Positions 3,701-20,536 of a DNA stretch of 49,605 bases are shown here, in pieces (positions within the stretch are counted from its first letter, which is position 1; every line of letters begins with the position of its first letter). The stretch spans positions 1 through 49,605 of the forward strand of contig MFPR01000023.1 of NCBI GenBank assembly GCA_001784175.1. The letters are read 5' to 3'. Origin of the DNA: Candidatus Lindowbacteria bacterium RIFCSPLOWO2_12_FULL_62_27. Lineage in GTDB: Bacteria; Lindowbacteria; 2-12-FULL-62-27. Both the position numbers and the translations under genes were made by a program. Under the pieces are notes generated by a model. That model made no database searches. It had not been told where the DNA came from and saw nothing but the letters and a program-made list of their open reading frames with translations.

Positions 3701-6700
3701 CTCGGCGCCGTTCTTGACGGGCTGGCCGGCCGGCGGATGGACGGGCACGAACGACACGAACGGCGTTTCGATGGAACGCAAAATGTCCGGCCTCAATTAC
3801 GCGACGGTCGGGTCGGGCGACTCCGAGGCCCAGTGGGACAGCCACAACATGCGCCACGGCAACGGCCGGCCGCATGGCACGCCCGGGCATGTGAACAGCA
3901 TCAACATTCCGAGCCTCACGTCGATCACGCCGAGGAGCCCGGTCGCGTCGTCCGGTCGCGGCAAGTGGACCCTGACGGTGACCAACGGCCGGGACGATTT
4001 TTCAGGCGGCCGCGTCGTTCTCAAAGTCCCGGCCGGCTGGAGCCAGCCGACCAGCACGGCCAACGATCCGGGGTATACGACCGTTTCGGTGAGCAACGGC
4101 ACGATCAACACGACGACGTTTTCCGGGGACAGCATGATCGTCGACCTGACCGCGTGGACGGCCCAGAGTGGAACGCTGGAAATCATCTACGGCGACAATG
4201 CCGGGGGCCGGAACTCTCTGGCGCGGGTGGCGTCGACCTCGAGCGCGACGCCGGTAGAGTTTCAGCTTTTTTATGACACCAGCGGCTCAGTCGTCACCAT
4301 GGCTGGCGACAGCGGGGTGTTTGGCGTGAAATCCGAGACGCTGCCGGTGGTTGAGTATGCCGCGGCGAATCTCCTGGGCGGGGCGATTGACACGAATCCG
4401 TCCGGCAATCCACGCAGTTTCATGAATTCGGAATATACGCTGACCATCACGCACACGGACACGCTGGGGCGCGTCATTTACGGCGCGCACGATTCGGTGA
4501 CGATCAAACCGTTTCTGACTTCGGCGACCGCCGCCTCGGATTCGCACGTGCACGAGGACGCCACGTTTGCCGGTTTCTACGATCCGACGAACAACGACAC
4601 GATTCAGGTCGGCGGGTGGACCGACGAGTACGGCCGGTTTCAGGCAACGCTCCATGTGAGTTCGATCGCCGGCAATGACGCGCAGCTCAACGAATTTCGC
4701 GTGTCATGGGGGGACAACAACAATTCCTCGACGGTTTCCGATTCCGCGCGGTTGCCGGTCCCGGTCATCAATGAAGTCGCGTGGGACGGTTCGGTGGAGT
4801 ATATCGAAGTCTACAACCCGACGCACCAGGTTCAAACGCTGACAGGATTCCAGATCATTTCGGTGAGCAACCTTACGGACAGCGCGACGGCGACCATAGA
4901 AGTCGGCGCCAGCGGCGGCTTCAATAGTGTCTTCAGCTTAAATCCATTTCACTATGTCGTCTTCGTGGATACCGCGGGCACGGCGCCGGACAGTGGCGGG
5001 CAGACCACGGATTCTCGAGAGATCGACGCAGTGACCTTGACCGACAACCCGGCTGAAACGCTGGTTCTACGAAATGCTTCAGCGTCATTTACGGATATGA
5101 TGGGCATTCTCGGCAACAGCGGATACTTCAATGACGCAGACAAAAGCGGGGGACCCGATGAGGGCGTCAGTTATTCGCTGGAGCGTGTCTTCACCAACCG
5201 GTCGGGCAACCAATCCGACAACTGGGCCAGTTCCGACTCGGCGCCCGGCGGAACCGGCGGAGCGGGGACATCCGGTCGGCCGAACGCGAAGTCTCTCTAC
5301 GCCACCCAAGTCGACCGTCTGGACACCGTCATCGGGCGGCCGAACGGGAGCACGATGGACACGGCCCGGGTCACGCTGATTCTGAAGATCGCATCCGGCG
5401 ACACGCAGCCGAACCAGCAGATCGGTGTGCAGGGCGCGATCGCCGAAGGGCCGCGGCACGGGGATTCGAGCTGGTATCTCGTCACGCCGTCCGTGACGAA
5501 CAGTCAGGGCACGGCGGCGATCACGATCTCGGCCAACGGCAACAACACCTCCGGCACGGTTCACATCCGGATCCGGCAGCCCTACGGGGTGACCGACAGC
5601 GCCTACATCGTATTCGACCGCGGCGAAAGCTTCGCCTACATCTTCCAGTCCAGCGAAACGAACATCTCCGACACGTCGGCGAAGAACGCGCTGGTGGTGT
5701 TCGTCAGTTTCAAGGACACCATTTCCGGCATCGACACGAGCATCATGCCGCAGTACCGCTGGAAGGTCGGCGTGAGCGGGACCTACACATCGTACGCGAA
5801 CATGACGTACCACACGGGCGACACGTATCTGGCCCGGATCGACATTTCGCCGGACACCTGGTCCAAAACCCCGCACGACACGATCTACTGGCAATACCTC
5901 TGGCGCGACCGCGCCGGGAACTGGGACACGTCGCCGACCGACGACTCGCGCACGGCCGACTACATCGACAACACGAAGGCTTTCGACACGATTTCCTCGC
6001 CGTCGGCGGGCGACACGCTGAGCGGCTCGAACGCGCTGGTGCGGCTCCTGATCGGCGATGGGGCACGGGACTACTGCACGATCACGGTCAAGTACGACAC
6101 GTACGCCTCAGGGCTCTGGACCAACGCGACGCTGGTGTCGGGATCGGACACCAAAACCAACCTGCGGACGACCCAGGGCGGCGACACGCTGGATTTGCGG
6201 TGGAACACCACGACCGATCTTTCCGGCACCACCATCGTGAGCGTCCGCCTGCGGGTCGAAATCTACGACGGATTCGACACGCGGACGGACACCACGAGCA
6301 ATTTCGGGATCGCCAACGCGACCGGCGCGAACGACCCGCCCTCCGATACGATCGCGCTTCCGGCGGACGGCGAGACCTACGCGGGGAGCGTGACCGTGCG
6401 ATTTTTCCTGGTCGACCCGGACAACCAGTACTGCACGGTGTCGATCCGGTATGCAAAGGACAGCGGGACGGCGTGGTTCCCCGCGACGATCACGGGATCG
6501 ACGAGCAACCTGTACGCGCCGTCGGCCGGGGACACGTTCACAGTCACGTGGAATTCCAAGACCGACCTCGTGGACACGAAAATCGCGAGCGTCAAACTCA
6601 GCGTCACGCCGAGCGACGGCACCGACACCGGCCCCGCCGACACCACGCTGGTGTTCGGGATCGACAATCAGAAACCGGGCGTGATCGACACGGTGACGGC

Positions 6701-7316
6701 CGCGGCGGACGTGGAGGGATCGGACACGGGGGTATACGTGTCGTGGAGCACGTCGTCCGCGTCAGATTCGAAGGGGTACAACATCTACCGATTCAGCGGG
6801 ACGGACAGCGCGCAGTCGTCGAAGGTAAACGTGGGCGTGATCACGGACACGTTCGGTTTCAAGGACTCGTCGGCGGTGCAGGGCGACACGAATTTCTATT
6901 ACGTCGTCGTCGTCGACACCTACGACAACCAGAGCGACAGCTCGATGTCGGCGGAGGCGCCGAACATCGATGTGGTGAAGGACGTGGGGGATTCGAGCAA
7001 CGCGAAGCGTCTGCGGCCCGGCGACACGGTTTCATTTTTGATCACGGTGCGGAACAACGGATTCGCGCCCGCGCGCGGTATCGTGCTGTACGACTACGTT
7101 CCGCAATTTTCCACCTACACCGAATCGGCGGCGGCCACCAGCCTCGAAAGCAACTGGACGATCGAATACCGCGTGGACGGCGCCGGCGGCTCGGACGTGT
7201 GGCAATCCGCGCTGTCCGACACCGCCACCATGCTCCGGTTCACCCGGTCGGCCCGGCTGGAACCGAAGGTTGCGACGGCGTCGGACACGCTGAGGATCAA
7301 GGTGAAAATCCAATAA
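789..7316 (+). CDS. Giant secreted multidomain protein (lamin-tail, Ig-like, Fn3, DUF11-like)
   Basis: Predicted 2175-aa exported protein. A long N-terminal region ends in a hydrophobic signal segment near residues 35-60. An Ig-like block at about 128-335 is repeated at about 638-848; both copies share phrases such as CTLYWH, DTKVGFWW and DTGxGFN. Three lamin-tail-like domains lie near 345-475, 853-1030 and 1328-1500 (phrases ISEIMWDGD, EYVELYN, INEVAWDG, EYIEVYNP). Two copies of a roughly 110-residue domain lie near 1733-1960, then an Fn3-like domain near 1963-2058 (GYNIYRFSG) and a DUF11-like repeat at the end (RPGDTVSFLITVRNNG). No enzyme motif is visible, so a structural, adhesive or envelope role is inferred. 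ATG 789 has no Shine-Dalgarno; GTG 801 is in frame with GAGG six bases upstream and may be the true start. The stop overlaps an ATG of the next frame (TAATG). Asp-Thr pairs are unusually frequent. Confidence 0.85.
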   Translation: MRLLVFFLSIKTNKSFRAAGFFTKFSVCHPFFRLLLKTTQIGVLTALSLAILVQSSAALVGEGGDLNLIQSNWTGGGDTTRGTISSVDYEIVTTVGYIGGDTVLSTATQETAFTGFSATLNAPFPDTYKLLEITAPATGHETKVATIVISGTSVLSISDSIIAVVDGVEVDTSTTDTSGSWTISSVLLNGTDDDLMVKIRDKQTGEIRAQDTITVTYDGIAPKVTAIADTSVKNGSNKGQVAATATFYIVDTGAGFNGTGSCTLYWHFDSGTNINFTAVEPSGSPGTYVIEGTIPNPGVDTKVGFWWGCHDDALNIMTASSLTPKYLESDPGTYTIKAPAAASGNMIADTLVIYGIIDSFDATTSIEGVILYNPTDRAFDLNGYSIQGSNENDASGYVTFASGDTIAAFGYFLVTSSAATDADKTMPDEITDPAGDSVAIHTATGARVDLVGNGAATEYEGTAPTAMATSNDALIRKPSYNFVGHGLRPAGGGGGMIDTDNNASNLMDDTTQNGNVAWPNRNKGITDRLVFACTAPTTAAQSANFGLSCTAVVRWKDVTSPDSVARAYTGSSAWGTITSDAGTVNGLGADSSFTNGVLNNYQLNISATLGTVRITIADAYCTGYVDVYINASTNDTVTFDVASSGATHETTAASATLSGNTAAASGDSVQIYIDNVATDSHVLTANGVWSIVNVDFKDKTGESVAAYAFDGGVFLGADTITVHYDATKPRITKIGDTTIADGGTTAASETMFFYVFDTGTGFNSAGGCTLYWHVDSGANTNWAVATENDSGGTATIEAMIPVSTFNPLVDTKVGFWWVCRDDLGNLMDSASLSPSYTDARPGTFTVDVASVRDVIISEIMWDGDNSQGDMEYVELYNRTGASVSLNGWRLRDGHGTGSTGFDLRFGAADSIPAYSYYVIYQTGDGDIGGAAFTDISSHFDTTHNDWDGDNDLLRAGDSLTLFINSTGVEIDSAPFLTGWPAGGWTGTNDTNGVSMERKMSGLNYATVGSGDSEAQWDSHNMRHGNGRPHGTPGHVNSINIPSLTSITPRSPVASSGRGKWTLTVTNGRDDFSGGRVVLKVPAGWSQPTSTANDPGYTTVSVSNGTINTTTFSGDSMIVDLTAWTAQSGTLEIIYGDNAGGRNSLARVASTSSATPVEFQLFYDTSGSVVTMAGDSGVFGVKSETLPVVEYAAANLLGGAIDTNPSGNPRSFMNSEYTLTITHTDTLGRVIYGAHDSVTIKPFLTSATAASDSHVHEDATFAGFYDPTNNDTIQVGGWTDEYGRFQATLHVSSIAGNDAQLNEFRVSWGDNNNSSTVSDSARLPVPVINEVAWDGSVEYIEVYNPTHQVQTLTGFQIISVSNLTDSATATIEVGASGGFNSVFSLNPFHYVVFVDTAGTAPDSGGQTTDSREIDAVTLTDNPAETLVLRNASASFTDMMGILGNSGYFNDADKSGGPDEGVSYSLERVFTNRSGNQSDNWASSDSAPGGTGGAGTSGRPNAKSLYATQVDRLDTVIGRPNGSTMDTARVTLILKIASGDTQPNQQIGVQGAIAEGPRHGDSSWYLVTPSVTNSQGTAAITISANGNNTSGTVHIRIRQPYGVTDSAYIVFDRGESFAYIFQSSETNISDTSAKNALVVFVSFKDTISGIDTSIMPQYRWKVGVSGTYTSYANMTYHTGDTYLARIDISPDTWSKTPHDTIYWQYLWRDRAGNWDTSPTDDSRTADYIDNTKAFDTISSPSAGDTLSGSNALVRLLIGDGARDYCTITVKYDTYASGLWTNATLVSGSDTKTNLRTTQGGDTLDLRWNTTTDLSGTTIVSVRLRVEIYDGFDTRTDTTSNFGIANATGANDPPSDTIALPADGETYAGSVTVRFFLVDPDNQYCTVSIRYAKDSGTAWFPATITGSTSNLYAPSAGDTFTVTWNSKTDLVDTKIASVKLSVTPSDGTDTGPADTTLVFGIDNQKPGVIDTVTAAADVEGSDTGVYVSWSTSSASDSKGYNIYRFSGTDSAQSSKVNVGVITDTFGFKDSSAVQGDTNFYYVVVVDTYDNQSDSSMSAEAPNIDVVKDVGDSSNAKRLRPGDTVSFLITVRNNGFAPARGIVLYDYVPQFSTYTESAAATSLESNWTIEYRVDGAGGSDVWQSALSDTATMLRFTRSARLEPKVATASDTLRIKVKIQ

Positions 7317-7330
7317 TGAGGAGGTCATCG

Positions 7331-8449
7331 GTGAGACACATCATGGCAATGAAGGCGTACATCGTACTGGGACTTCTAGGACTTCTGACCCCGGCTTACG
7401 GTCTGAGTTTTGACACCATTTACGAAACGCGTGTCGACACGCACGGCGTCTTGATCGTGTGGCAGACCGACACGGCTTCGAACGGCAACATCGAATATGG
7501 CCTCGGGACGGCCGACGCGAACCAGATGTCGATCGAGATGACGATGGCCCTGCAGCATCAGACGTCCATTTACGGGCTTCTCGAGGGCGAGGACTACATG
7601 TTCCGCATCCGCGCCCGGAGCCGGACCGGCGGACAGGCGCAAAGCCCGTGGCACCGGTTTCGGACGCTCGGGATACCGGCCCCGAAGATCCTGGAGGTTG
7701 CCGTGGTGGAGGCGACGCCGGAAGGCGGCACGCTGGTGTGGCGGTCCAACATCCCGACGCGGGGCACGTTCGAGTGCGGCTACGACACGTCCTACGGATT
7801 TCAACAGACCGACGACCGCTACGGGGCCGCCCACGAAGTGATCGTGAAGCGGTTCAATCCGCGCAAGACCATTCACTACCGTGTCCGGGCCGTGGACGAG
7901 CGAGGCCTGGAGGCGCCGGAGCACGCCGGCACGTTTGTGACGGCGGAACGCAACATCGCGGTGGGCGCGAAGGTAACGGGAACATTCACGCGGAACGTCG
8001 AGCCGTCCTACATCAAGGACACCCCGCCGATTCTGGACCGGGTGACCGACGGAGGGCTGGACTACTACACGGGGATGGCGTCGTCCGGCGATCCGAAAGA
8101 CGCGGACCAGTGGGTGGAAATCGATCTCGGAAAAATCGCATTCGTGTCGGACATCGTGACGATGTGGTGGCAGCTTGCGTATCCGAAAAAATTCTCCGTG
8201 AAACTCAGCCTGAACCGGGAAACCTGGCGGGCGCTGGGGGACACGTATGACGCCTCGACGGGCCAGACCGCGAAGAGCCGCAGCGGCGATCCGCTCTGGG
8301 AGCATTTCGCGCAAGCGGGCTCGGTCCTGGCGCGATACGTTCGGATCGACATTCCGCAGGGCGCGCCGTACGAGCGTCGGTTTCCGAAATTCAACTACGT
8401 CACGTTGTTCGAGCTGAAGGTTTATCCGCCGGAGGAAAAACATGATTAG
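7331..8449 (+). CDS. Secreted fibronectin-III / discoidin (F5/8 C-like) protein
   Basis: Predicted 372-aa exported protein. The start chosen is GTG 7331 because a perfect AGGAGG (7319-7324) lies six bases upstream; in-frame ATGs at 7316, 7343 and 7349 are worse placed. An N-terminal signal peptide ends near PAYG. Two Fn3-like segments follow (about residues 25-205; GVLIVWQTD, YRVRAVDERG). The C-terminal 160 residues resemble a discoidin/F5-8 type C fold, with phrases such as DQWVEIDLGKIA and RYVRIDIP typical of carbohydrate- or surface-binding domains. It follows the 2175-aa gene by 14 bases and is probably cotranscribed. A glycan- or matrix-binding accessory role is inferred. Confidence 0.8.
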   Translation: MRHIMAMKAYIVLGLLGLLTPAYGLSFDTIYETRVDTHGVLIVWQTDTASNGNIEYGLGTADANQMSIEMTMALQHQTSIYGLLEGEDYMFRIRARSRTGGQAQSPWHRFRTLGIPAPKILEVAVVEATPEGGTLVWRSNIPTRGTFECGYDTSYGFQQTDDRYGAAHEVIVKRFNPRKTIHYRVRAVDERGLEAPEHAGTFVTAERNIAVGAKVTGTFTRNVEPSYIKDTPPILDRVTDGGLDYYTGMASSGDPKDADQWVEIDLGKIAFVSDIVTMWWQLAYPKKFSVKLSLNRETWRALGDTYDASTGQTAKSRSGDPLWEHFAQAGSVLARYVRIDIPQGAPYERRFPKFNYVTLFELKVYPPEEKHD

Positions 8450-8555
8450 AGCATCCAGTCAACAAAGAGCGGTACTTCCAACCCTATCGTCTGCCGTTCG
8501 GGCGGGCGTTTCCATAGATCGCACAAACTCTTGCCTTTTGAAAGGAGGCAGATTT

Positions 8556-9722
8556 ATGTCACGTCAAAGTTTAAGCGTACTCGTGACGCTGCTTCTGATC
8601 GGCCTGTCGGCGATGCCGGCACTGGCCGTAGGAACCAGCGGCGACACGGCGTACATCTCGAATGGATTTTTCACCTACACCGACACGGTGCCCAACAGTT
8701 ACGGGCGTCTGTCGGTGGCGTACATGAAATCCCAGAACAGCGCGGATTCGAAGTACAAGGGTCCGTCTGCCGGCGACTCGGTGATTGTCGACACTGCGTG
8801 GGACATGACTCAGATTTACAATCTGACTCAGACGTCCGGCGCGGCGGGCGAGACCGTGTCGTTTGTACACTGGATTGAGAACATCGGAAATGCGACGGCT
8901 CGGATCGATTTCGAGACGCGGTTCATCACCGATGCCAACCTCAAGGACACGGACTGGGGGAGGGAGCGGTACACGATCTTCGGCGACGCCGACAAGGACA
9001 GCGCGGTCGACAACGGCGCCAATCGTGACACCACCTACATCCAGCTTCCCCCGGGAAGGTCCATCCAGATCATCGTGCAGGTGTCGATCCCTGACACGGC
9101 GGTGGATGGCGATTCGTCGCACATCATGCTGGCGGTGACGGACAACGCCGTCACGCTGGCGGATGGCGCCCAGGGCGACTCCTGGCAGGCCGGGACGATC
9201 CTGGCGAGCGGGGAGGACAGCCGCGACACGATGGTGGACACGGTGGTTGTTCAGGTCAAGGGACCGAACGTCATTGTGGAGAAGAACGTGTATGAGATGA
9301 CGGCCAACCGGTCTCGACCGGGTGACACCATTGTCTGCGACATCACGTTCGACAATGACGGTTCGGACTCTGCCCGGGGTCTTCAGATCATGGACGCGAT
9401 CCCGCAGTGGTCCTATTTCCAGAAGAACTCGGCAGAAAGCGGGATTTTTCTGGGCAACTCGGCGCAGACGCCGACTGCCACCGCCGACTCCGAGATCACC
9501 GTCCAGTATGACACGGACGCCGCCAGCATAAACGGCCGGGTGGAGTTCCTCGACACGTACGGCAACCACGCGGACACGAACAGGATCGTCACGGCGATCC
9601 GGTGGACGCTCACGACGTATGTCCGTGCCGGTGACGATGACGCGAACGGAACGGTCGAGTTTAACGACAACAACGCCACGGCGGACAACGGACGCGTGCA
9701 GTACCGCGTCGTCATCGAATAA
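8556..9722 (+). CDS. Secreted DUF11-like repeat protein
   Basis: Predicted 388-aa exported protein. ATG 8556 is preferred over an in-frame ATG at 8442 because AAAGGAGG ends seven bases upstream and a clean signal peptide follows directly (cleavage near MPALA). The first half (about 25-230) has an extracellular beta-sandwich look and resembles the N-terminal domain of the 3275-aa neighbour: both have a D-x-DGDS-type stretch, PPxxAVDG/PDTAVDG and LLSAT/MLAVT before the next module. The second half starts NVIVEKNVYE and continues RPGDTIVCDITFDNDG, a DUF11-like module closely matching the C-terminus of the 2175-aa protein. The 106 bases before it hold nothing I recognise. Probably a structural partner of the other secreted proteins. 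Confidence 0.8.
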   Translation: MSRQSLSVLVTLLLIGLSAMPALAVGTSGDTAYISNGFFTYTDTVPNSYGRLSVAYMKSQNSADSKYKGPSAGDSVIVDTAWDMTQIYNLTQTSGAAGETVSFVHWIENIGNATARIDFETRFITDANLKDTDWGRERYTIFGDADKDSAVDNGANRDTTYIQLPPGRSIQIIVQVSIPDTAVDGDSSHIMLAVTDNAVTLADGAQGDSWQAGTILASGEDSRDTMVDTVVVQVKGPNVIVEKNVYEMTANRSRPGDTIVCDITFDNDGSDSARGLQIMDAIPQWSYFQKNSAESGIFLGNSAQTPTATADSEITVQYDTDAASINGRVEFLDTYGNHADTNRIVTAIRWTLTTYVRAGDDDANGTVEFNDNNATADNGRVQYRVVIE

Positions 9723-10708
9723 GGACGGAGGAAAGCGAAGCGCCTGAACAGGGAAGACAAGTAAAGAATGCAAGGAAGTCCTGCGGGGCCTGTGGCCACA
9801 GGTCCTGCGGCGACGTGACATTGGCGGCACGGGGCAAGATCGAAACTCGAGATCGATCTTAAACCCACCGCCGGCCCACTCCTTTCGGGGAGCGGGCAGT
9901 CTCCTTTCGGCGGTGTCCGAACCGGTCCCATCCCGGTTGGACCCGTTATGTTGGAGACGTTCCTTGCAGGCAGGTCTTCCCAATCGGCGCGCGATGCGGA
10001 AGAGTCCGTTGTCGGGCGAGGTTGTCGTATGAGGGGAGGAGTCTGCCCCTGAAGCCTCTACCGGGAACGGGAATGCGGACCGAGTAGTCCGCGCCCGCTT
10101 CGCGTGTTTTCCTCCGAGGCCCGCGGTTTGTCCGCGGGCTATGGAGGAAGTCTTTCAGGCGCGATGATGTCGGCCTTGCGCTGACATCGATCGCACTCAT
10201 GGACCAACGGTCCGGAGGGCAACCTCCGCCGGGTCCTGAGGTGGTTCATGGTCCTCCGCAGGACGGCTTAAAGGGAGCCGGTCCACCCGACCGGCCGCCA
10301 GATCGACATGGCGGCAGCCGGGAGAAGGTTCCCAGGCCGGACAGCGGCGGGACTTCACCACCGACGGTACCTCGGCGGGGATGGCCCTGCGCCAACGGTC
10401 CTGGAGTCAGGCTCGTACCCCCGTCAGCCGCTCCGCCGCCCGAAAGGGTGCGCGCGGGGCCTGACCGGGAACAGCCGCCTCCGGGGAAGTTCATAGGTGA
10501 GCTTGGAGTAAAAGCTCCAAGGCAGATACCCAGGGAGACGAGTCCGCCCGGAACATTCGGGATTCGGGAAGGACCGGACTTTATCCGTCATTTCGGCCCC
10601 GTTCCTTTGGGTGAGGGGGAAGGACCGCCCCCAACGCGGGTTGGAGAAAATCCCATCCGGGGATTTTCTGAAATTGGAGCGTTGGGGACAGGACATCCGT
10701 GTCCGCCC
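9723..10708 (+). ncRNA. Candidate large structured RNA or structured 5' leader
   Basis: A 986-base gap with no convincing protein; its open frames translate to Pro/Gly/Arg-rich sequence. After a purine-rich 60 bases it is packed with perfect stems. Examples: 9836-9843 with 9853-9860, closed by GGCGG (9823-9827) with CCGCC (9868-9872); 9915-9942; 10075-10080 with 10087-10092; TTCCTCC (10109-10115) with GGAGGAA (10143-10149) enclosing 10119-10126 with 10132-10139; an 11-bp helix with one bulge at 10161-10194; 10213-10228 with a GCAA loop; 10277-10295; GTCAGGC (10406-10412) with GCCTGAC (10459-10465) enclosing CCC-GAAA-GGG; 10502-10521; AGTCCG (10541-10546) with CGGACT (10575-10580); CCCCAACGC (10629-10637) with GCGTTGGGG (10679-10687) enclosing a 9-bp hairpin; 10691-10704. 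GNRA loops support the plus strand. No terminator-like T-run precedes the next gene, so it may be that gene's leader. Confidence 0.6.
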
Positions 10709-13700
10709 ATGCGCGGCAGTGTGTTCCGGCGAATGACCGCGCTGTGGATGATGGTCTGCGCCGTGCTGGGTCTGTGGACGGCGCCCGCGCCGGCCGGCCA
10801 TGGGGATACGCACGCGCCCGTCAAGACGGTCATCACGTTTGATACGGTCACGGTGAAGTACATGTGGCCCCTGTGGACCAGCGCCGTGAATCATGACAGT
10901 GACGCTCGATATTCGAACAAGGACTACGAGACGGTCCAGCTTCTGTCGGCGGTCGACGTCACGACGAATCTGGAGACGGCCTACATCGGGCCGCGGGACA
11001 GTGTGATCTTCATAAGACATATTCGGAATCTTGGGAATGGATACGACACGTACCGGGTGCGCGGGGATTCGCAGCCGGGCGTGAATTTTGTCACCGGAAT
11101 CTTTTTGGACGCCGCCGACGGCGACAGCGTGTTTGACGGCAGTGACCCGCCGGCTGCGACGGCGGTGGTGGGCGCGCTCAAGGAGACGGTCGTGCTGGTG
11201 CGCGTCCAAGCGCCGCCAACCGCGGTGGACGGCCAGATCGACACGTTGCTTCTCTCTGCGACGTCCGACGCCGCCGTTCTGTCGGCGGACACCGTGACGC
11301 TGGTGCTGACGCTTGATTCTCAGCCGCCGACCGCCCCGAGCCTGCAGTCGCCGGCGGGCGGATTCGAAACGAACAGCCTGCGGCCGGCGTTCCGATGGGA
11401 CACGTCCGCCGACACGCTGGCCGGTCTGGCCTGGTACCGGTTCGAGCTGGACACGAGCGGCCTGTTCGTGAATCTCGTTCTGTCGGACACGCGGACCGAC
11501 ACGGCCTTCACGCCGGCCGCGGACATGTCCGCCGGCCGGTATTTCTGGCGCGTGCTCGCGGTCGATACGGTCGGCAATGTCAGCCGGTCGAATCCGGATT
11601 CGAACCGCCTCGTCATCGACACAAGCGCCGCCGTGTCGGCGGTCGGGCCGCCGGACGGTCACGAGACGAACGCGGCGGCGGTGCGGTTCGAATGGGCGTC
11701 GACCGAGGCGGAGACGTACACGTGGCAGTTGTCGAAGTCCGCGGCCTTCGCGACGATCGCCGACAGCGCGGTCGACACGCGGGTCACGAGCCTGAACCGG
11801 ACCCTGCCGGACCAGGACACGTACTTCTGGCGCGTGCTCGCGCGGGACACGGCCGGCAATTACGACACGACGGCCGTGCGCGCCCTCCTGCTGGACACCC
11901 TCGTCGGTCAGGTGAGCTTGACGGCGCCGGCCGACGGGCTTGAGACGCAGGCCGCGTCGGTCCCGATCCTGTGGTCCGCCGTGCCGGACAGCGTGGGGAT
12001 CGACTCGTATGCTGTGGAGGTCGCGAAGACCACGGCGTTTTCGGACGTGGTTTTCGCGGACACCGTCGACGGCGTATTCGCGACCGATACGGTCACCGGC
12101 TTGTACAACGACACGTACTTCTGGCGCGTCCGGGCCGTCGACGATCTCGGCAACAGCGGGGCGTATTCGGCCGCGCGCGGATTTGTGACCGACACCAGCG
12201 TCGCCCAAGTCAGCCCGGCCGGTCCGTCGGACGCGCACGAGACGACGAACGCGAGCGTGGTGGTGACCTGGACCGCCGTCGGGGATTCGGTAGGCATCGA
12301 CAGCTACGCGGTGGAGGCGTCGAAGAACGCTGGATTTGAGAGCCTGAGTTTTGTGGACACGGTCGACGGCGCGCTGACGGGCGATACGATCACGGGCCTG
12401 TACAACGACACGTACTATTGGCGCGTTCGGGCCGTCGATGTGCAGGGCAACGGCGGCGCGAACTCGGCGACGCGCGGGTTTGTGGTTGACACCCTCGCCG
12501 GCCAGGTGAATGTGTCGGGCCCGGCGGACGGCCACGAGACGACGAACGTGAACGTGGTCGTCACGTGGACCGCCCTCGCGGACTCGGTGGGGATCGACAG
12601 CTACGCAGTGGAGGCGTCGAAGAGCGCGGCGTTTGCGAGCGTCGCGTTTGCGGACACAGTCGACGGCGCGTTGACGGGCGATACGATCATGGGCCTGTAC
12701 AACGACACGTATTATTGGCGCGTGCGTGCCATCGACGATCTGGGGAACGCAGGCGCGAACTCGACGGCGCGAGGATTTGTGGTCGACACCCAGGTCGAAG
12801 CGGTGAGTGTGACGGCGCCGTCGGACGCGCACGAGACGACGAACGCGAGCGTAGTGGTGAGTTGGACGGCGGTGGGCGCCGACACGGTGGGGATCGACAG
12901 TTACGTCGTGGAGGCGTCGAAGACCGTCGCGTTTGCCGAGGTCGTGTTTGCGGATACGACCGACGGGACGAATACGACAGACACGATCACCGGTCTCTAC
13001 AATGACACGTATTACTGGCGCGTGCGCGCGGTCGACGATCTGGGGAACGCCGGCGCGAACTCGGCGACCCGGGGATTTGTGGCCGACACCCACGTGGGCC
13101 AGGTCAGCCTGTCGATGCCCGCGGACGGCCATGAGACGACGAGCGTGAGCGTGGTCGCCACGTGGACTGCGGTGGCGGATTCGGTGGGGATCGACAGCTA
13201 CGCGGTGGAGGCGTCGCCGAGCGCGGCGTTTTCGATCGTCGTGTTTGCGGATACGACCGACGGGACAACTACGGCAGATACGATCACCGGTCTGTACAAT
13301 GACACCTACTACTGGCGCGTCAGGGCGGTCGACGATCTTGGCAACGGCGGAGCGGTATCGACTGCCCGGGGCTTCGTGGTCGACACATCGATCGGACAGG
13401 TGAGCGTGACGGGTCCGACGGACGGACACGAGACGACCAACGCGAGCGTGGTGGTGACGTGGACTGCGGTGGCGGACTCGGTAGGGATCGACAGCTACGC
13501 GGTGGAGGCGTCGAAGAGCGCGGCGTTCGCCTCTGTCGTGTTTGCGGATACAACCGATGGGACGAATACGACGGATACAATCACCGGACTATACAACGAC
13601 ACATACTACTGGCGTGTCCGCGCGATCGACGAAGCCGGCAATGCCGGCGTCAACTCGGCGGCGCGCGGATTCGTGGTGGACACGGCAGTGGAGCAGGTCA

Positions 13701-16700
13701 GTCTGTCGTTGCCGGCGGATGGACACGACACGACGAATGCAAGCGTCGTCGTGAGCTGGGCGGCCGTTGGAGCGGACAGCGTCGGGATCGACAGTTACGT
13801 GGTGGAGGCGTCCAAGAGCGCGGCGTTCGCGGCGGTCGTGTTTGCGGACACGACCGATGGGGCGAATACGACCGACACGATCACGGGTCTGTACAATGAC
13901 ACGTACTACTGGCGCGTGCGGGCGATCGACGATCTGGGGAATGCCGGCGCAAACTCTGCCACGCACGGGTTTGTGGTCGACACAGCCGTCGGTCAAGTGA
14001 GTGCGACCGGCCCGGCCGACGGCCACGAGACGACGAACGTAAGCGTGGTCGTCACGTGGAGCGCGGTCGCGGACTCGGTGGGGATCGACAGCTACGCGGT
14101 GGAGGCGTCGAAAAGCGCGGTGTTCGCCGGCATGGCGTTTGCCGACACGGTGGAGGGCGCGCTGACGGGCGACACAGTAACGGGTCTGTACAATGACACG
14201 TACTTCTGGCGTGTCCGTGCGATCGACGATCTGGGCAACGGCGGCGCCTATTCGGCCGCCCGCGCCTTCGTTGTGGATACGTCCATCGAGCAGGTTGTGG
14301 CGGTGTCTCCGTCGGACGGGCACGAGACAACGAGCGCAAGTGTCGTGGTGAGCTGGACGGCGGTCGGCGCGGACAGTGTGGGGATCGACAGTTACGTGGT
14401 GGAGGCTTCGAAGTCGGCCGGATTTGTCGCGATCGTGTTTGTGGATACGACGGATGGGACGAATACGGCAGATACGATCACAGGCCTGTACAACGACACG
14501 TACTACTGGCGCGTGCGCGCGGTCGACGACGTGGGCAACATCAGCGCGAACTCATCGACCCGCGGATTTGTGGTGGATACGGCGGTCGCCCAAGTGAGCG
14601 TATCGAGTCCCGCCGCCGGGCATGAAACTACGAACGTGAGCGTCGTTGTTGCGTGGAGCGCGGCGTCGGATTCGGTCGGCATCGACAGCTACGCGGTGGA
14701 GGCGTCGAAGAGCACGGCGTTTGCCGATGTCGTGTTTGTGGATACGACCGATGGGACGAATGCGACAGATACGATCACTGGTCTGTACAATGACACCTAC
14801 TACTGGCGTGTCCGCGCGATCGACGATCTCGGAAACATCGGAGCGGTCTCGACCGCCCGGGGCTTCGTGGTCGACACGTCGATCGGACAGGTGAGCGTGA
14901 CGAGTCCGGCGGACGCGCACGAGACGACCAACGCGAGCGTGGGGGTGACGTGGAGCGCGGTGTCGGATTCTGTGGGAATTGACAGCTACGCGGTGGAGGC
15001 GTCGAAGAGCACGGCGTTTGCCGCGGTCGTGTTTGTGGATACGACCGATGGGACGAATACGACCGATACGATCACCGGGCTGTACAACGACACATACTAT
15101 TGGCGCGTGCGCGCGATCGACGATGTCGGTAACGTCGGCGCCGCCTCCGCAACCCGCGGGGTTTTGGTTGACAGCGGCGCCGGGCAGGTCGCGCTCGTGT
15201 CGCCCGCCACGAACTCGTCGACATCGGATTCCACGCCGACGCTCACGTGGGCCGCGCTGTCCGACAGCGTCGGGATCGATTCGTACGTGATCGAGGTGTC
15301 GCTCAGCGCTTCGTTTGCCTCCTTCGTGTTCACGGACACGGTAGACGGAACGCTGATAAGCGACACTCCGACAGCGCTGGCCGAATCTACGTATTACTGG
15401 CGCGTCCGGGCGATCGACCAGCTCGGGCAGGCCGGCCAGAATTCCGATTCCTTCATCTTCCGGATTGACACGGGCATCTCGCTGACCCTGACCAATCCGC
15501 CGGCCAATCACGACACCAACGCGGCCACCCTCCGGTTTGAATGGGACGCCGACGCCGACACCTTCACGTGGCAGCTTTCCAAGTCCTCGACGTTCGCGAC
15601 GATTTCCGACAGCGTCGTCGACACGCGCGTGACCAGCCTTGTCCGCACGTTGCCCGAGCCTGACACTTTCTACTGGCGCGTCATCGCCCGCGACACCGCC
15701 TCGAATTACGACACCGCCACCGGACGCCGGCTGATCCTGGACACGGCGGTCGAGCAGGTGACCGTGACCGCGCCGGCGGACGGCCACGAAACGACGAACG
15801 TGAGCGTGACGGTGAGCTGGACGGCGATCGGCGCCGACAGCGTCGGGATCGACAGCTACGTGGTGGAGGCATCGAAGTCGGTTGGATTCGCCGAGGTCGT
15901 GTTTGTGGATACAACGGATATGACGAATACGACAGATACGGTCACAGGCCTGTACAACGACACATACTTCTGGCGCGCGCGCGCGGTGGACAATGTTGGA
16001 AACGTGGGTGCGAATTCCACGGCACGCGGCTTCGTGGTCGACACGGCCGTGGGGCAAGTGAGCCTGGCGAGTCCGGCGGACGCGCACGAGACGACCAACG
16101 CGAGCGTGGGGGTGACGTGGAGCGCGGTGTCGGATTCGGTGGGGATCGACAGCTACGCGGTGGAGGCGTCGAAGGGCACGGCGTTTGCCGCAGTCGTGTT
16201 TGCGGATACGACCGATGGGACGAATACGGCAGATACGATCACCGGTCTGTACAACGACACATACTTCTGGCGCGTCCGCGCGGTCGACGATCTCGGAAAC
16301 ATCGGCGCGAACTCGGCCGCCCGCGGGTTCGTGGTCGACACGTCGATCGCGCAGGTGAGCGTGTCGAGTCCGGCGGACGCGCACGAGACGACCAACGCGA
16401 GCGTGGTGGTGACGTGGAGCGCGGTGTCGGATTCGGTGGGGATCGACAGCTACGCGGTGGAGGCGTCGAAGAGCTCGGCGTTCGCCTCGGTCGTGTTTGC
16501 GGATACGCCCGATGGGACGAATACGACAGATACGATCACGGGGCTGTACAATGACACGTACTACTGGCGCGTCCGCGCGATCGACGATGTGGGAAATGCG
16601 GGAGCGAATTCCACAGCGCGCGGCTTCGTGGTCGACACGGCCGTGGACCAGGTGGGTGCGGCCAGCCCGGCGGATGGCCACGAGACGACGAACGCGAGCG

Positions 16701-19700
16701 TGGTGGTGAGCTGGAGTGCGATAGGCGCGGACACGGTGGGGATCGATTCGTACGTGGTCGAGGCCGCGAAGAGCGCCGCGTTTGCGAGCGTGCTCTTTGC
16801 CGACAGCGTGGACGCGGGCCTGACGAGCGACACGATCACGGGCCTGTACAACGACACATACTTCTGGCGCGTCCGTGCGGTCGACGATCTGGGCAACGTC
16901 GGCGCCAACTCGACGGCCCGCGGGTTCGTGGTCGACACCGCGATCGCGCATGTAAGCGCGGCCGCGCCGGCGGATGGGCACGAGACGAACGCGACCCCCG
17001 TGCGTGTGTCGTGGTCCACCGCGAGCGACAGTGTTGGGATTGATTCGTATGCGGTGGAGGCGTCGAAGAGCACGGCGTTTGCCGCGGTCGTGTTTGTGGA
17101 TACGACAGATGGGACGAATACGACAGATACGATCACCGGACTGTACAACGACACATACTATTGGCGCGTGCGCGCCATCGACGATCTCGGCAACAGCGGC
17201 GCCTTCTCGACCGGCCGGGGATTCCTCATCGATACGGCGATCGGACAGGTCGTTCTTGCGACGCCGGCGAGCTACACGATGACGACCGACTCGACGCCCG
17301 CCCTGACGTGGACCGCGCTGACCGACAGTGCCGGCATCGATTCGTATGTGGTGGAAGTGTCGGCCAGCCCGGCGTTCGCGGCGCTGTCGTTCGCCGACAC
17401 CGTCGACGGTACGAAGGCCGCCGACACGACAGCCGTGCTTGCCGATTCCACCTATTACTGGCGCGTGCGCGCGATCGATGCGGTCGGAAACGTCGGCGCC
17501 AATTCCGAATCGTCCGTCCTGCGCGTCGATACCGGCGTGAGCGTGTCGCTGAGCAGTCCGGCGGACGGCCACGAAACGAACAGCGCGACTGTGACGTTTG
17601 CCTGGTCGTCCGCCGATGCGGAGACCTACACGTGGCAGCTTTCCAAGAGCGCCGCGTTCACGACCGTGATCGACAGCGTGGTCGACTCCACCGCGACGGA
17701 AGTTCGCCGGACGCTGCCCGATCAGGACACATTCTTCTGGCGCGTCATCGCGAGGGACACGGTCGGAAACGTCGACACGACCATCCGGCGGATCGTGATC
17801 CTCGACACCCGCGTTGATTCGGTGACGGTGGTTGGCCCCGAAAACGGGCACGAAACCAACGTCGCATACCCGGCGCTGTCCTGGACCGTGCCGGCCGACA
17901 GCGTGGGGATCGACAGTTTCGTAGTCGAGGTTTCCAAGAGCATCGCCTTCACGAGCCTGGCGCTCGCCGACACGATCGACGGCACGCGGACCGGCGACAC
18001 GCTGATCGGCGTGTACAACGACACCTATTACTGGCGCGTGCGGGCCATCGATCGCGTGGGCAACGTGGGACCCAACTCCGACACGCGAGGATTCCTCGTG
18101 GATACGGCGGTCGGAACCGTGACGCTCGTCTCGCCCGTGAGCGGCACGGTGACCAGTGACACGACGCCGACCCTGAGCTGGAACGCGCCGGCCGACAGCG
18201 TGGGCATCGATTCGTACGCGATTGAAGTGTCCGGAAACCTGTCGTTCGCCGCCCTCGTGTTCGCGGACACCGTCGACGGCGCCCTGACCGCCGACACCGT
18301 GACGGCGCTGACCGATTCGGCGTATTACTGGCGCGTGCGCGCCGTGGACGATATGGGGAACTTCGGCCCGTCCTCGGACACGTTCACGCTGTCCATCGAC
18401 ACCGGCTTGAAGGTCACGCTCACCGGCCCGGCCGACGGCCATGAAACGAATTCGGCGGCGGTCCGGTTCTCGTGGACGGCGGACGCCGACACCTTTACCT
18501 GGCAGCTTTCCAAGACCGCTGCGTTCACGACGATCGTCGACAGCGCCGTCGATACGAACGTGTCGAGCCTCGTGCGGAGTCTGCCGCAGGAGGACACGTT
18601 CTACTGGCGGGTGATCGCGAAGGACACGGTATCGAATTCTGACACGAGCGCCGCCCGCGGCCTGATCGTCGACACGTCGGTCCGGCAGGTGACCGCGGCC
18701 GCGCCTGCCGCCGGCCACGAGACGGCGAATACGCAGCCGGTGACGGCATGGAGCGCCGTGGCGGACAGCGTGGGGATCGACAGCTACGCGGTGGAAGTCT
18801 CCAAGGCCGCGGCCTTCACGAGCGTAATCTTTGCCGACACGATCGATGGCGCGATCCTCAGCGACACGCTGACGGGTCTGTACAACGACACGTATTTCTG
18901 GCGCGTGCGCGCGATCGATGACCTGGGCAACGTTGGCCTGCCCTCCGACTCGCGGGGCATCCTCATCGACACCTTCGCGCCGAAGGTCACGCTCTCGGCG
19001 CCGGCGGACCTCCACGAAACAAACAACGCCACGCCGGTGGTGGGCTGGACTGCGGTGTCGGACAGCGCCGGGGTCGACAGCTATGTAGTGGAAGCCGCAA
19101 AGAACGCGGCCTTCACAAGCCTCGTCTTCGCCGATACGGTGGCCGGCGCGCGCACGAGCGATACGCTGGGGAATCTGTACAACGACACCTATTACTGGCG
19201 TGTCCGCGCGATCGATGTGCTCGGAAACGTCGGCCAGAATTCGGACACGCGCAAGATTCTGCTCGACACGCAGGGCGCCTCGGTCAATCTGGCCGGCCCG
19301 GCGAATGGCTCGGTGACGACGGACACGACGCCGACCTTCTCATGGCAGGCGGTCAGCCAGGTCGGGATCGACAGTTTCGTGCTGATGGTATCGCGCGCCT
19401 CGACCTTCCAGCCGCTGGACTTCGTCGACACGGTCGACGGCGCGATCATGAGCGACACGGCAACGATCCTGGTGGAGGACACCTACTACTGGAAAGTCAT
19501 CGCGATCGACAACGCCGGCAACACGCCGGCCTCCGCCGCATGGACGCTCCTTGTCGACACGGCGTCTCCGACCGCCCCGACGCTGGTCGCGCCGGCCTAC
19601 GGGCATGAGACGTCGAACCTGAAGCCGTACTTCACGTGGACGACGTCCTCCGACAAGGTCAGCGGCGTCTATGCCTACCGGCTCGAGATTTCGACCGATT

Positions 19701-20536
19701 CGAATTTCTCGACATATTACCGGATTGACACCTACGTCGTCGGCGCGGGCTTTTCGGCCGCCGCGCTTGAAACGACCACGCGCTTGCTGGGGGTCGACAC
19801 CTATTATTGGCGCGTGATCGCAGTCGACAACGCCGGCAACACGTCAGGTTCGCCGCCGCCGCCGTACAAGCTCAGTCTCGTCGAGCCGAGCGGATCGATC
19901 GCGTTCGACAAGGCCGAGTACAAGGGCGTGAGCGAGCTGGCGCGGATCCTGCTGACCGACGCGCTCGCGAATCTGTCGCCGAACCTGGTCGACCAGGCGG
20001 AGATTACCGTCACGAGCGACGCCGATCTCCTCGGATTCACGATGTTCCTGACGGAGACCGACCTGAACACGAACATCTTCTCGGGAACCATTCAGTTCAC
20101 GAGCGGGATGACCGACAAGACCGCGCGGAAGATCCGCGTGAACCCCGGCAGCGGCGTGACGGTGCGGCGGGTCCAGACCAACGGCGTCGTCATCACGGGC
20201 GGGACCCGCTGGCTGTCGGACTTCGGAACCACGCCGCCGCAGGACGTGAACAAGGCGCGGAGCTGGCCGAACCCGTGGAACCCGACGTCCGGCGAGCCGC
20301 TCATCATCCAGAACCTGCCGGCCGACCCGTCGATGAGCATCGAGATTTACACGCTCGACATGCGAAAAGTCCGGAGCCTCTACAACGGCAGCGGCATCAG
20401 CGTCTCGAACTTCGGCAGCGCCGCCCAGTGGGACGGCCGCAACGACGCGGGCGATTACGTGGCCAGCGGCGTGTACCTCTACGTGATCAAGAGCCAGTTC
20501 GGGACGACGGTCAAGAAGATCACGCTGGTGAAATAG
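10709..20536 (+). CDS. Giant secreted tandem Ig/Fn3-repeat protein with FlgD-like sorting tail
   Basis: Predicted 3275-aa exported surface protein. ATG 10709 starts a normal signal peptide (Arg-Arg, hydrophobic core, cleavage near APAPAG); the open frame extends upstream to 10199 but that part reads as structured RNA. Residues about 30-205 form a beta domain like that of the 388-aa neighbour. Residues about 205-3060 are 29 tandem modules of about 90-105 residues, each with a core like DTITGLYNDTYYWRVRA followed by DLGN. A linker domain follows, then a C-terminal FlgD-Ig/type-IX-like tail: WPNPWNP, IEIYTLDMRKV, WDGRNDAGDYVASGVYLY and terminal KKITLVK. Such tails direct outer-membrane export or anchoring in T9SS bacteria; whether this host has that system is not visible here. 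Likely an adhesin, sheath or S-layer-like fibre. No catalytic motif was seen. Confidence 0.85.
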   Translation: MRGSVFRRMTALWMMVCAVLGLWTAPAPAGHGDTHAPVKTVITFDTVTVKYMWPLWTSAVNHDSDARYSNKDYETVQLLSAVDVTTNLETAYIGPRDSVIFIRHIRNLGNGYDTYRVRGDSQPGVNFVTGIFLDAADGDSVFDGSDPPAATAVVGALKETVVLVRVQAPPTAVDGQIDTLLLSATSDAAVLSADTVTLVLTLDSQPPTAPSLQSPAGGFETNSLRPAFRWDTSADTLAGLAWYRFELDTSGLFVNLVLSDTRTDTAFTPAADMSAGRYFWRVLAVDTVGNVSRSNPDSNRLVIDTSAAVSAVGPPDGHETNAAAVRFEWASTEAETYTWQLSKSAAFATIADSAVDTRVTSLNRTLPDQDTYFWRVLARDTAGNYDTTAVRALLLDTLVGQVSLTAPADGLETQAASVPILWSAVPDSVGIDSYAVEVAKTTAFSDVVFADTVDGVFATDTVTGLYNDTYFWRVRAVDDLGNSGAYSAARGFVTDTSVAQVSPAGPSDAHETTNASVVVTWTAVGDSVGIDSYAVEASKNAGFESLSFVDTVDGALTGDTITGLYNDTYYWRVRAVDVQGNGGANSATRGFVVDTLAGQVNVSGPADGHETTNVNVVVTWTALADSVGIDSYAVEASKSAAFASVAFADTVDGALTGDTIMGLYNDTYYWRVRAIDDLGNAGANSTARGFVVDTQVEAVSVTAPSDAHETTNASVVVSWTAVGADTVGIDSYVVEASKTVAFAEVVFADTTDGTNTTDTITGLYNDTYYWRVRAVDDLGNAGANSATRGFVADTHVGQVSLSMPADGHETTSVSVVATWTAVADSVGIDSYAVEASPSAAFSIVVFADTTDGTTTADTITGLYNDTYYWRVRAVDDLGNGGAVSTARGFVVDTSIGQVSVTGPTDGHETTNASVVVTWTAVADSVGIDSYAVEASKSAAFASVVFADTTDGTNTTDTITGLYNDTYYWRVRAIDEAGNAGVNSAARGFVVDTAVEQVSLSLPADGHDTTNASVVVSWAAVGADSVGIDSYVVEASKSAAFAAVVFADTTDGANTTDTITGLYNDTYYWRVRAIDDLGNAGANSATHGFVVDTAVGQVSATGPADGHETTNVSVVVTWSAVADSVGIDSYAVEASKSAVFAGMAFADTVEGALTGDTVTGLYNDTYFWRVRAIDDLGNGGAYSAARAFVVDTSIEQVVAVSPSDGHETTSASVVVSWTAVGADSVGIDSYVVEASKSAGFVAIVFVDTTDGTNTADTITGLYNDTYYWRVRAVDDVGNISANSSTRGFVVDTAVAQVSVSSPAAGHETTNVSVVVAWSAASDSVGIDSYAVEASKSTAFADVVFVDTTDGTNATDTITGLYNDTYYWRVRAIDDLGNIGAVSTARGFVVDTSIGQVSVTSPADAHETTNASVGVTWSAVSDSVGIDSYAVEASKSTAFAAVVFVDTTDGTNTTDTITGLYNDTYYWRVRAIDDVGNVGAASATRGVLVDSGAGQVALVSPATNSSTSDSTPTLTWAALSDSVGIDSYVIEVSLSASFASFVFTDTVDGTLISDTPTALAESTYYWRVRAIDQLGQAGQNSDSFIFRIDTGISLTLTNPPANHDTNAATLRFEWDADADTFTWQLSKSSTFATISDSVVDTRVTSLVRTLPEPDTFYWRVIARDTASNYDTATGRRLILDTAVEQVTVTAPADGHETTNVSVTVSWTAIGADSVGIDSYVVEASKSVGFAEVVFVDTTDMTNTTDTVTGLYNDTYFWRARAVDNVGNVGANSTARGFVVDTAVGQVSLASPADAHETTNASVGVTWSAVSDSVGIDSYAVEASKGTAFAAVVFADTTDGTNTADTITGLYNDTYFWRVRAVDDLGNIGANSAARGFVVDTSIAQVSVSSPADAHETTNASVVVTWSAVSDSVGIDSYAVEASKSSAFASVVFADTPDGTNTTDTITGLYNDTYYWRVRAIDDVGNAGANSTARGFVVDTAVDQVGAASPADGHETTNASVVVSWSAIGADTVGIDSYVVEAAKSAAFASVLFADSVDAGLTSDTITGLYNDTYFWRVRAVDDLGNVGANSTARGFVVDTAIAHVSAAAPADGHETNATPVRVSWSTASDSVGIDSYAVEASKSTAFAAVVFVDTTDGTNTTDTITGLYNDTYYWRVRAIDDLGNSGAFSTGRGFLIDTAIGQVVLATPASYTMTTDSTPALTWTALTDSAGIDSYVVEVSASPAFAALSFADTVDGTKAADTTAVLADSTYYWRVRAIDAVGNVGANSESSVLRVDTGVSVSLSSPADGHETNSATVTFAWSSADAETYTWQLSKSAAFTTVIDSVVDSTATEVRRTLPDQDTFFWRVIARDTVGNVDTTIRRIVILDTRVDSVTVVGPENGHETNVAYPALSWTVPADSVGIDSFVVEVSKSIAFTSLALADTIDGTRTGDTLIGVYNDTYYWRVRAIDRVGNVGPNSDTRGFLVDTAVGTVTLVSPVSGTVTSDTTPTLSWNAPADSVGIDSYAIEVSGNLSFAALVFADTVDGALTADTVTALTDSAYYWRVRAVDDMGNFGPSSDTFTLSIDTGLKVTLTGPADGHETNSAAVRFSWTADADTFTWQLSKTAAFTTIVDSAVDTNVSSLVRSLPQEDTFYWRVIAKDTVSNSDTSAARGLIVDTSVRQVTAAAPAAGHETANTQPVTAWSAVADSVGIDSYAVEVSKAAAFTSVIFADTIDGAILSDTLTGLYNDTYFWRVRAIDDLGNVGLPSDSRGILIDTFAPKVTLSAPADLHETNNATPVVGWTAVSDSAGVDSYVVEAAKNAAFTSLVFADTVAGARTSDTLGNLYNDTYYWRVRAIDVLGNVGQNSDTRKILLDTQGASVNLAGPANGSVTTDTTPTFSWQAVSQVGIDSFVLMVSRASTFQPLDFVDTVDGAIMSDTATILVEDTYYWKVIAIDNAGNTPASAAWTLLVDTASPTAPTLVAPAYGHETSNLKPYFTWTTSSDKVSGVYAYRLEISTDSNFSTYYRIDTYVVGAGFSAAALETTTRLLGVDTYYWRVIAVDNAGNTSGSPPPPYKLSLVEPSGSIAFDKAEYKGVSELARILLTDALANLSPNLVDQAEITVTSDADLLGFTMFLTETDLNTNIFSGTIQFTSGMTDKTARKIRVNPGSGVTVRRVQTNGVVITGGTRWLSDFGTTPPQDVNKARSWPNPWNPTSGEPLIIQNLPADPSMSIEIYTLDMRKVRSLYNGSGISVSNFGSAAQWDGRNDAGDYVASGVYLYVIKSQFGTTVKKITLVK
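11323..19885 (+). repeat. 29 tandem coding repeats of about 270-310 bp
   Basis: In-frame Ig/Fn3-like modules within the 3275-aa gene. Three kinds can be told apart. Type A contains VGIDSY and LYNDTY. Type B starts with a TSDSTPTLTW-like strand instead of the HETTNAS strand. Type C is shorter, lacks VGIDSY, and has the TFTWQLSKS strand. Order: two opening modules, eleven A, B-C, five A, B-C, one A, B-C, two A, B and a terminal module. Some A copies are nearly identical in DNA (for example near 14890-15090, 16070-16260 and 16370-16560), which indicates recent duplication or gene conversion. Confidence 0.9.

Follow-up and report, generated by a model that had tools for sequence, protein, structure and literature searches.

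Palindromes inserted in frame within protein-coding genes are known mainly from Rickettsia, where the Rickettsia palindromic elements (RPEs; Ogata et al. 2000, 2002), about 150 bp in length, reside in unrelated genes; similar insertions outside Rickettsia have been called conceivable (PMC10969869). REPs are shorter (20-40 bp) and mainly extragenic, with some located inside genes (PMC3733652). Here we analyze a locus of Candidatus Lindowbacteria bacterium RIFCSPLOWO2_12_FULL_62_27 that contains one copy of a palindromic element for which RPEs are the closest parallel in behavior. Like the RPEs, this element is a dispersed palindrome found in frame in unrelated coding genes, to which it would add a peptide insert. 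It differs from them in its length of 78 nt, in its two hairpins, in the use of five different reading frames across its hosts and in the identity of these hosts, which belong to candidate phyla far from Rickettsiales. The resemblance is a functional analogy, and we do not claim membership in the RPE family.

Folding and composition of the locus

The window, that is, the whole stretch of 49,605 nucleotides that was analyzed, is contig C23 of the 4.39-Mb genome (G000) of this bacterium, and its phylum is represented by three genomes in the collection examined. The first-pass annotation had reported, at positions 9723-10708, a dense array of helices without a credible protein and had proposed a single undescribed structured RNA of about 0.9 kb. 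The helices and the fold excess are confirmed: the minimum free energy of the plus strand is -531.8 kcal/mol (z -9.67), none of the 20 shuffled sequences folds equally well, and the excess on the minus strand is weaker (z -7.29). Among 103 tiles of 480 nt covering the window (mean z -0.64, sd 1.56), the most extreme one (10081-10560, z -8.0) overlaps this region. Because the z score of the region lies far below the tile average, the helix density is real and exceptional, and the shuffled-folding control that the annotation had called for, together with the tile comparison, rules out GC-content chance as the source of the helices. The Rfam covariance models, those of OLE, GOLLD and ROOL included, recovered no family at gathering score in 9723-10708, and only chance-level matches at E values up to 10; a plasmid search yielded no match.

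The fold excess is distributed unequally, with z -8.9 for 9723-10198 versus -4.5 for 10199-10620, and we are fairly confident that the region is a composite of an intergenic spacer with an RNA of ~190 nt (hereinafter module A), the 5' end of a giant protein gene and one copy of a mobile palindrome (Table 1). A single ~0.9-kb non-coding RNA of the OLE/GOLLD/ROOL type would be in line with the strong overall fold excess and its bias to the plus strand, the conserved hairpins and the outlier position among the tiles, but appears highly improbable given that the second half is conserved as a protein and that its alifold z scores are -1.4 to -3.1, compared with -11.1 for module A. Furthermore, the 3' hairpin is a dispersed repeat, Rfam provides no match, and in a sister genus module A occupies another spacer whereas the homologous spacer lacks it. 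Covarying non-coding structure does not extend along the whole length: strong consensus-fold scores were obtained at 9770-9968 and 10627-10704 only, and 10199-10620 is coding. The nested helices reported at 10406-10465 and 10541-10580 are real but fall in the coding part, and that at 10629-10687 belongs to the dispersed repeat. The first-pass annotation detected genuine structure, yet it fused three distinct entities and overlooked a protein; the most valuable of the three, the palindromic element, lies at the edge of its coordinates.

Table 1. Features of the region and its surroundings (positions in the window)
Feature	Coordinates	Strand	Description	Basis
Upstream secreted-protein gene	8442..9722	+	426 aa, weak DUF11-like stretch	
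Spacer	9723..10198	+	Genuinely intergenic, with a strong tendency to form hairpins (z -8.9)	
Module A	9770..9968	+	Structured RNA candidate, ~190 nt, outer helix and hairpins P2-P5	Shared with G002:C35 6377-6201(-)
P2	9787..9804	+	Apical GUGGCCAC, two compensatory pairs	
P3	9836..9860	+	Identical in both genomes, 9-nt loop AACUCGAGA	
P4	9867..9914	+	ACCGCC/GGCGGT here, CCCGCC/GGCGGG in G002	
P5	9915..9942	+	10-bp stem with a single bulge, loop UCCCAUC (7 nt), compensatory changes in four pairs	
Two strong hairpins	10109..10194	+	10109-10149 and 10161-10194	
Giant protein gene	10199..20536	+	3445 codons, from conserved ATG 10199	
N-terminal extension (very probable)	10199..10708	+	170 codons, Pro/Gly/Arg-rich, before signal-peptide-like segment	Frame-specific protein conservation
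Palindromic element	10627..10704	+	78 nt = 26 codons, in frame PPPTRVGENPIRGFSEIGALGTGHPCP	Covariance models

The homologous locus of the sister-genus genome G002 (groundwater MAG JACQOF01), on contig C35, consists of secreted-protein genes, a spacer and a giant gene, and a paralogous locus is present in the window's own genome on contig C19. Paralogs of the upstream secreted-protein gene adjoin giant genes in both genomes. No counterpart of the two strong hairpins at the 3' end of the spacer was seen in G002. Upstream of the cluster, positions 789-7316 of the window encode a protein of 2175 aa in which three stretches resemble lamin-tail domains. Contigs C6, C13, C19, C40, C23 and others of the window's genome contain giant open frames, the longest of 9114 codons, in which one extracellular-type domain is repeated very many times; the giant gene of the window is one of these frames.

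A palindromic element within host genes

The element consists of the helix at 10629-10687 and a second small hairpin. A covariance model built from nine initial copies, which show compensatory changes, detected about 60 copies in G002, 6-9 in the window's genome and one weak match in G001. Compensatory changes occur in 16 of the 23 pairs across 62 aligned matches, and 92.6% of the cells are paired in this alignment, which was fitted to the model, compared with 26-57% in slid controls. Seven G002 copies from different loci do not differ at any of the 78 nt, which speaks for recent spread. The 52 distinct copies are 78 nt (45 copies), 81 nt (4), 75 nt (1), 45 nt (1) and 77 nt (1) long; the length is divisible by three in 51 of them, and the lone 77-nt copy is found in the G002 spacer upstream of the ATG of the giant gene. 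Five of the six frames are nearly stop-free, with a mean of 4.7 open frames versus 3.5 in shuffles. At one locus (L129, 2951-2995), an internal deletion has reduced the element to 45 nt, still a multiple of three, with its two ends preserved.

Most copies are located in long frames whose composition is of the coding type to either side of the copy, and a few are intergenic or at gene ends. The element is inserted in frame within conserved, unrelated genes. For the ValRS of G002, residues 1-517 and 569-655 of the query match residues 79-592 and 610-692 of the chain of a solved relative, in which the insert segment is missing; the insert is similarly missing from the solved relative of pyruvate dehydrogenase E2 (query 2-101 and 127-301 versus chain 363-465 and 467-642). 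The gap within a histidine kinase ATPase domain measures 39 residues versus 13 in the solved relative, a difference of exactly 26, and that in a receiver domain 38 versus 9. Further hosts identified by NCBIfam are RecF, CbiB, RibF, LeuS, RecG, YgfZ and a glutaredoxin/thioredoxin-reductase fusion, as well as LeuD in the window's genome; the matched stretches flank or span the insert, as judged from individual alignments inspected in part. Other hosts, named by eye, we take to be SMC, transketolase and additional proteins. One 1012-aa ORF of G002 (L125, contig C13) carries two copies, at residues 386-413 and 660-686, and reads each of them in a different frame.

In the samples searched, matches were confined to the window's phylum and to G290, a genome from a two-genome phylum that contains four 72-nt (24-codon) relatives, two of them adjacent. 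One relative lies in frame in a histidine-kinase-like ORF, named by eye, and one (L149, G290 contig C11) is likewise in frame, close to the beginning of an ORF which, also by eye, is presumably Cas8e/CasA-like. We found no description of the 78-nt family in the open-access library searched.

Could the element be an ordinary REP-like extragenic repeat, its intragenic sites merely reflecting spurious frames in GC-rich DNA? Similarly to the REP/RAYT systems (PMC3733652), it is a short dispersed palindrome with a few copies between genes or at gene ends, and Y1 (RAYT-type) transposases are present in all three genomes of the phylum. Nevertheless, we give this reading hardly any credence, because about a dozen host proteins contain conserved domains on both sides of the insert in the same frame, the lengths are divisible by three and open frames are in excess. 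The element moreover differs from REPs in its 78-nt size and mostly intragenic location, and no element was found within ~1.5 kb of any of the six Y1-transposase loci examined. Mobilization by RAYT was rejected as well, given that Y1 genes exist but none of the six examined is flanked by the element. An attC/integron-like reading of the terminal hairpin was considered, but the copies are dispersed and in genes, which makes it improbable.

The preferred reading is a mobile, translatable palindrome. The element would spread through the genome as a hairpin-forming sequence, as the identical dispersed copies suggest, perhaps moving as a folded single strand by means of a transposase acting in trans. 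Selection may have favored frames free of stops, as well as lengths in multiples of three. Being exactly 26 codons long and without stops in five of six frames, the element can be tolerated inside genes; if translated, it would add a 26-residue peptide to the host protein rather than truncate it.

The spacer RNA candidate and the probable N-terminal extension of the giant protein

Comparison of the two available sequences indicates that module A is probably a previously undescribed structured RNA. To this extent the earlier proposal of such an RNA stands, at ~190 nt instead of 0.9 kb and as one part of a mosaic. The G002 copy is located upstream of a neighboring gene (L020, 6377-6201, minus strand), in a spacer other than the one homologous to 9723-10198, from which module A is absent. 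The four hairpins common to both genomes include 31 pairs, 8 of which are variable (7 compensatory changes and 1 one-sided) and none broken; sliding the partners destroys the pairing. These counts lean towards the structure that was drawn by hand on the same two-sequence alignment, with alifold as the independent test: against column shuffles, the two-sequence consensus fold has a z score of -11.1, and a stretch of the giant gene used as control scores -0.1. The P4 loop holds an extra hairpin in the window's genome.

The P3 loop contains a 6-nt palindrome, CUCGAG, between A residues (AA-CUCGAG-A). Palindromic kissing-loop dimers (PMC7357161) also present a six-nt palindrome flanked by purines in an apical loop; the likeness concerns the loop sequence layout alone, implies no homology and is best treated as a lead. 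OLE, GOLLD and ROOL (PMC12286853) are, like the candidate, structured bacterial RNAs, and P3 could conceivably form a symmetric palindromic kissing loop; module A differs from them in its ~190-nt size and lack of an Rfam match, and half of the originally proposed region is coding.

Module A is present in a single copy in each of the two genomes. Its covariance model, run on 386 sampled genomes, detected only these two (a match in G201 at E 0.03 was taken as chance), and a second, overlapping sample of 384 genomes provided nothing new. The P3 motif was not found in viral contigs, and neither ARAGORN nor Rfam assigned module A to tRNA, tmRNA or a riboswitch class. A twister- or T-loop-like appearance of P5, noticed by eye, was dismissed for want of Rfam support.

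The occupation of different spacers in the two genomes, and the position of module A here inside the apparent loop of another helix, would also fit an element that is mobile or in decay and has no function as an RNA. We consider this the less probable interpretation, though a serious one, in view of the single copy per genome, the compensatory changes with no pair broken and the complete conservation of P3. As a functional RNA, module A would most likely serve the secreted-protein/giant-protein gene cluster, either as a cis-acting leader or as a small RNA, and might dimerize via the palindromic P3 loop. Beside module A, the G002 spacer contains two further palindromic repeats, of the CACAGAG and GTCATTCCCGCG types (L020, 6550-6400 and 6150-6060); spacers of this type of gene cluster collect palindromes.

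The statement that the region holds no credible protein proved wrong: the ORF at 10199-20536 spans the second half without a stop, and the sister genus conserves its frame, with a homologous ORF that has the same start (TCATGGACC) and is open into the giant gene. In the aligned extension, 60 of the 105 residues in frame 0 are identical between the two genomes; with permuted substitutions, this frame yields p 0.0005, whereas p exceeds 0.6 in each of the two remaining forward frames. The five internal indels relative to G002 (24, 9, 27, 3 and 72 nt) are all multiples of three. As judged from this protein-level conservation of a frame, which the first-pass annotation had itself named as evidence against its RNA, 10199-10708 is very probably a translated N-terminal extension of the giant protein, found in these two genomes only.

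A stretch of 170 residues ahead of a signal peptide is unusual. One may ask whether the giant gene starts instead at ATG 10709, which opens a good signal-peptide-like segment, with 10199-10708 as an untranslated leader that is merely coding-like. No clear Shine-Dalgarno sequence precedes ATG 10199, and the GC3 of the extension is atypical (0.60 versus 0.85 for the giant gene body and 0.78 for the upstream gene). This alternative is nonetheless unlikely: the conservation is frame-specific, every indel spans a multiple of three, both genera keep the frame open, G002 has no ATG directly ahead of the signal-like segment, and the reading frame of the palindromic element within the extension recurs among its copies in well-supported genes. 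Apart from its being translated, the coding half may be under some RNA-level constraint because its mRNA shows excess folding relative to synonymous shuffles (z -3.6 and -4.3), but a value of -3.8 is also attained by the upstream gene; the alifold z scores given above show conserved folding beyond the protein to be weak there.

Implications

Mobile DNA within essential genes is normally destructive. Taken jointly, the observations incline us, by a modest degree, to a picture in which a family of selfish palindromes adapted to translation (26 codons, no stops in five frames, a covarying hairpin) has come to occupy, in frame, dozens of often essential genes of a candidate phylum and has a relative of 24 codons in another phylum. 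In the same picture, the giant surface-protein locus next to one copy is regulated by an RNA of ~190 nt whose kissing-loop hairpin is invariant. Module A itself is a new RNA candidate, small and open to testing. For annotators, the locus serves as a caution that dense helices can stem from translated palindromes. If the joint picture is true, protein-coding palindromes arose or moved well outside Rickettsiales. A mobile palindrome that is translated into 26 extra residues of tRNA synthetases, RecF, RecG and histidine kinases would illustrate one way in which new protein segments originate, and what has been a peculiarity of Rickettsia would become a more general strategy open to comparison between hosts.
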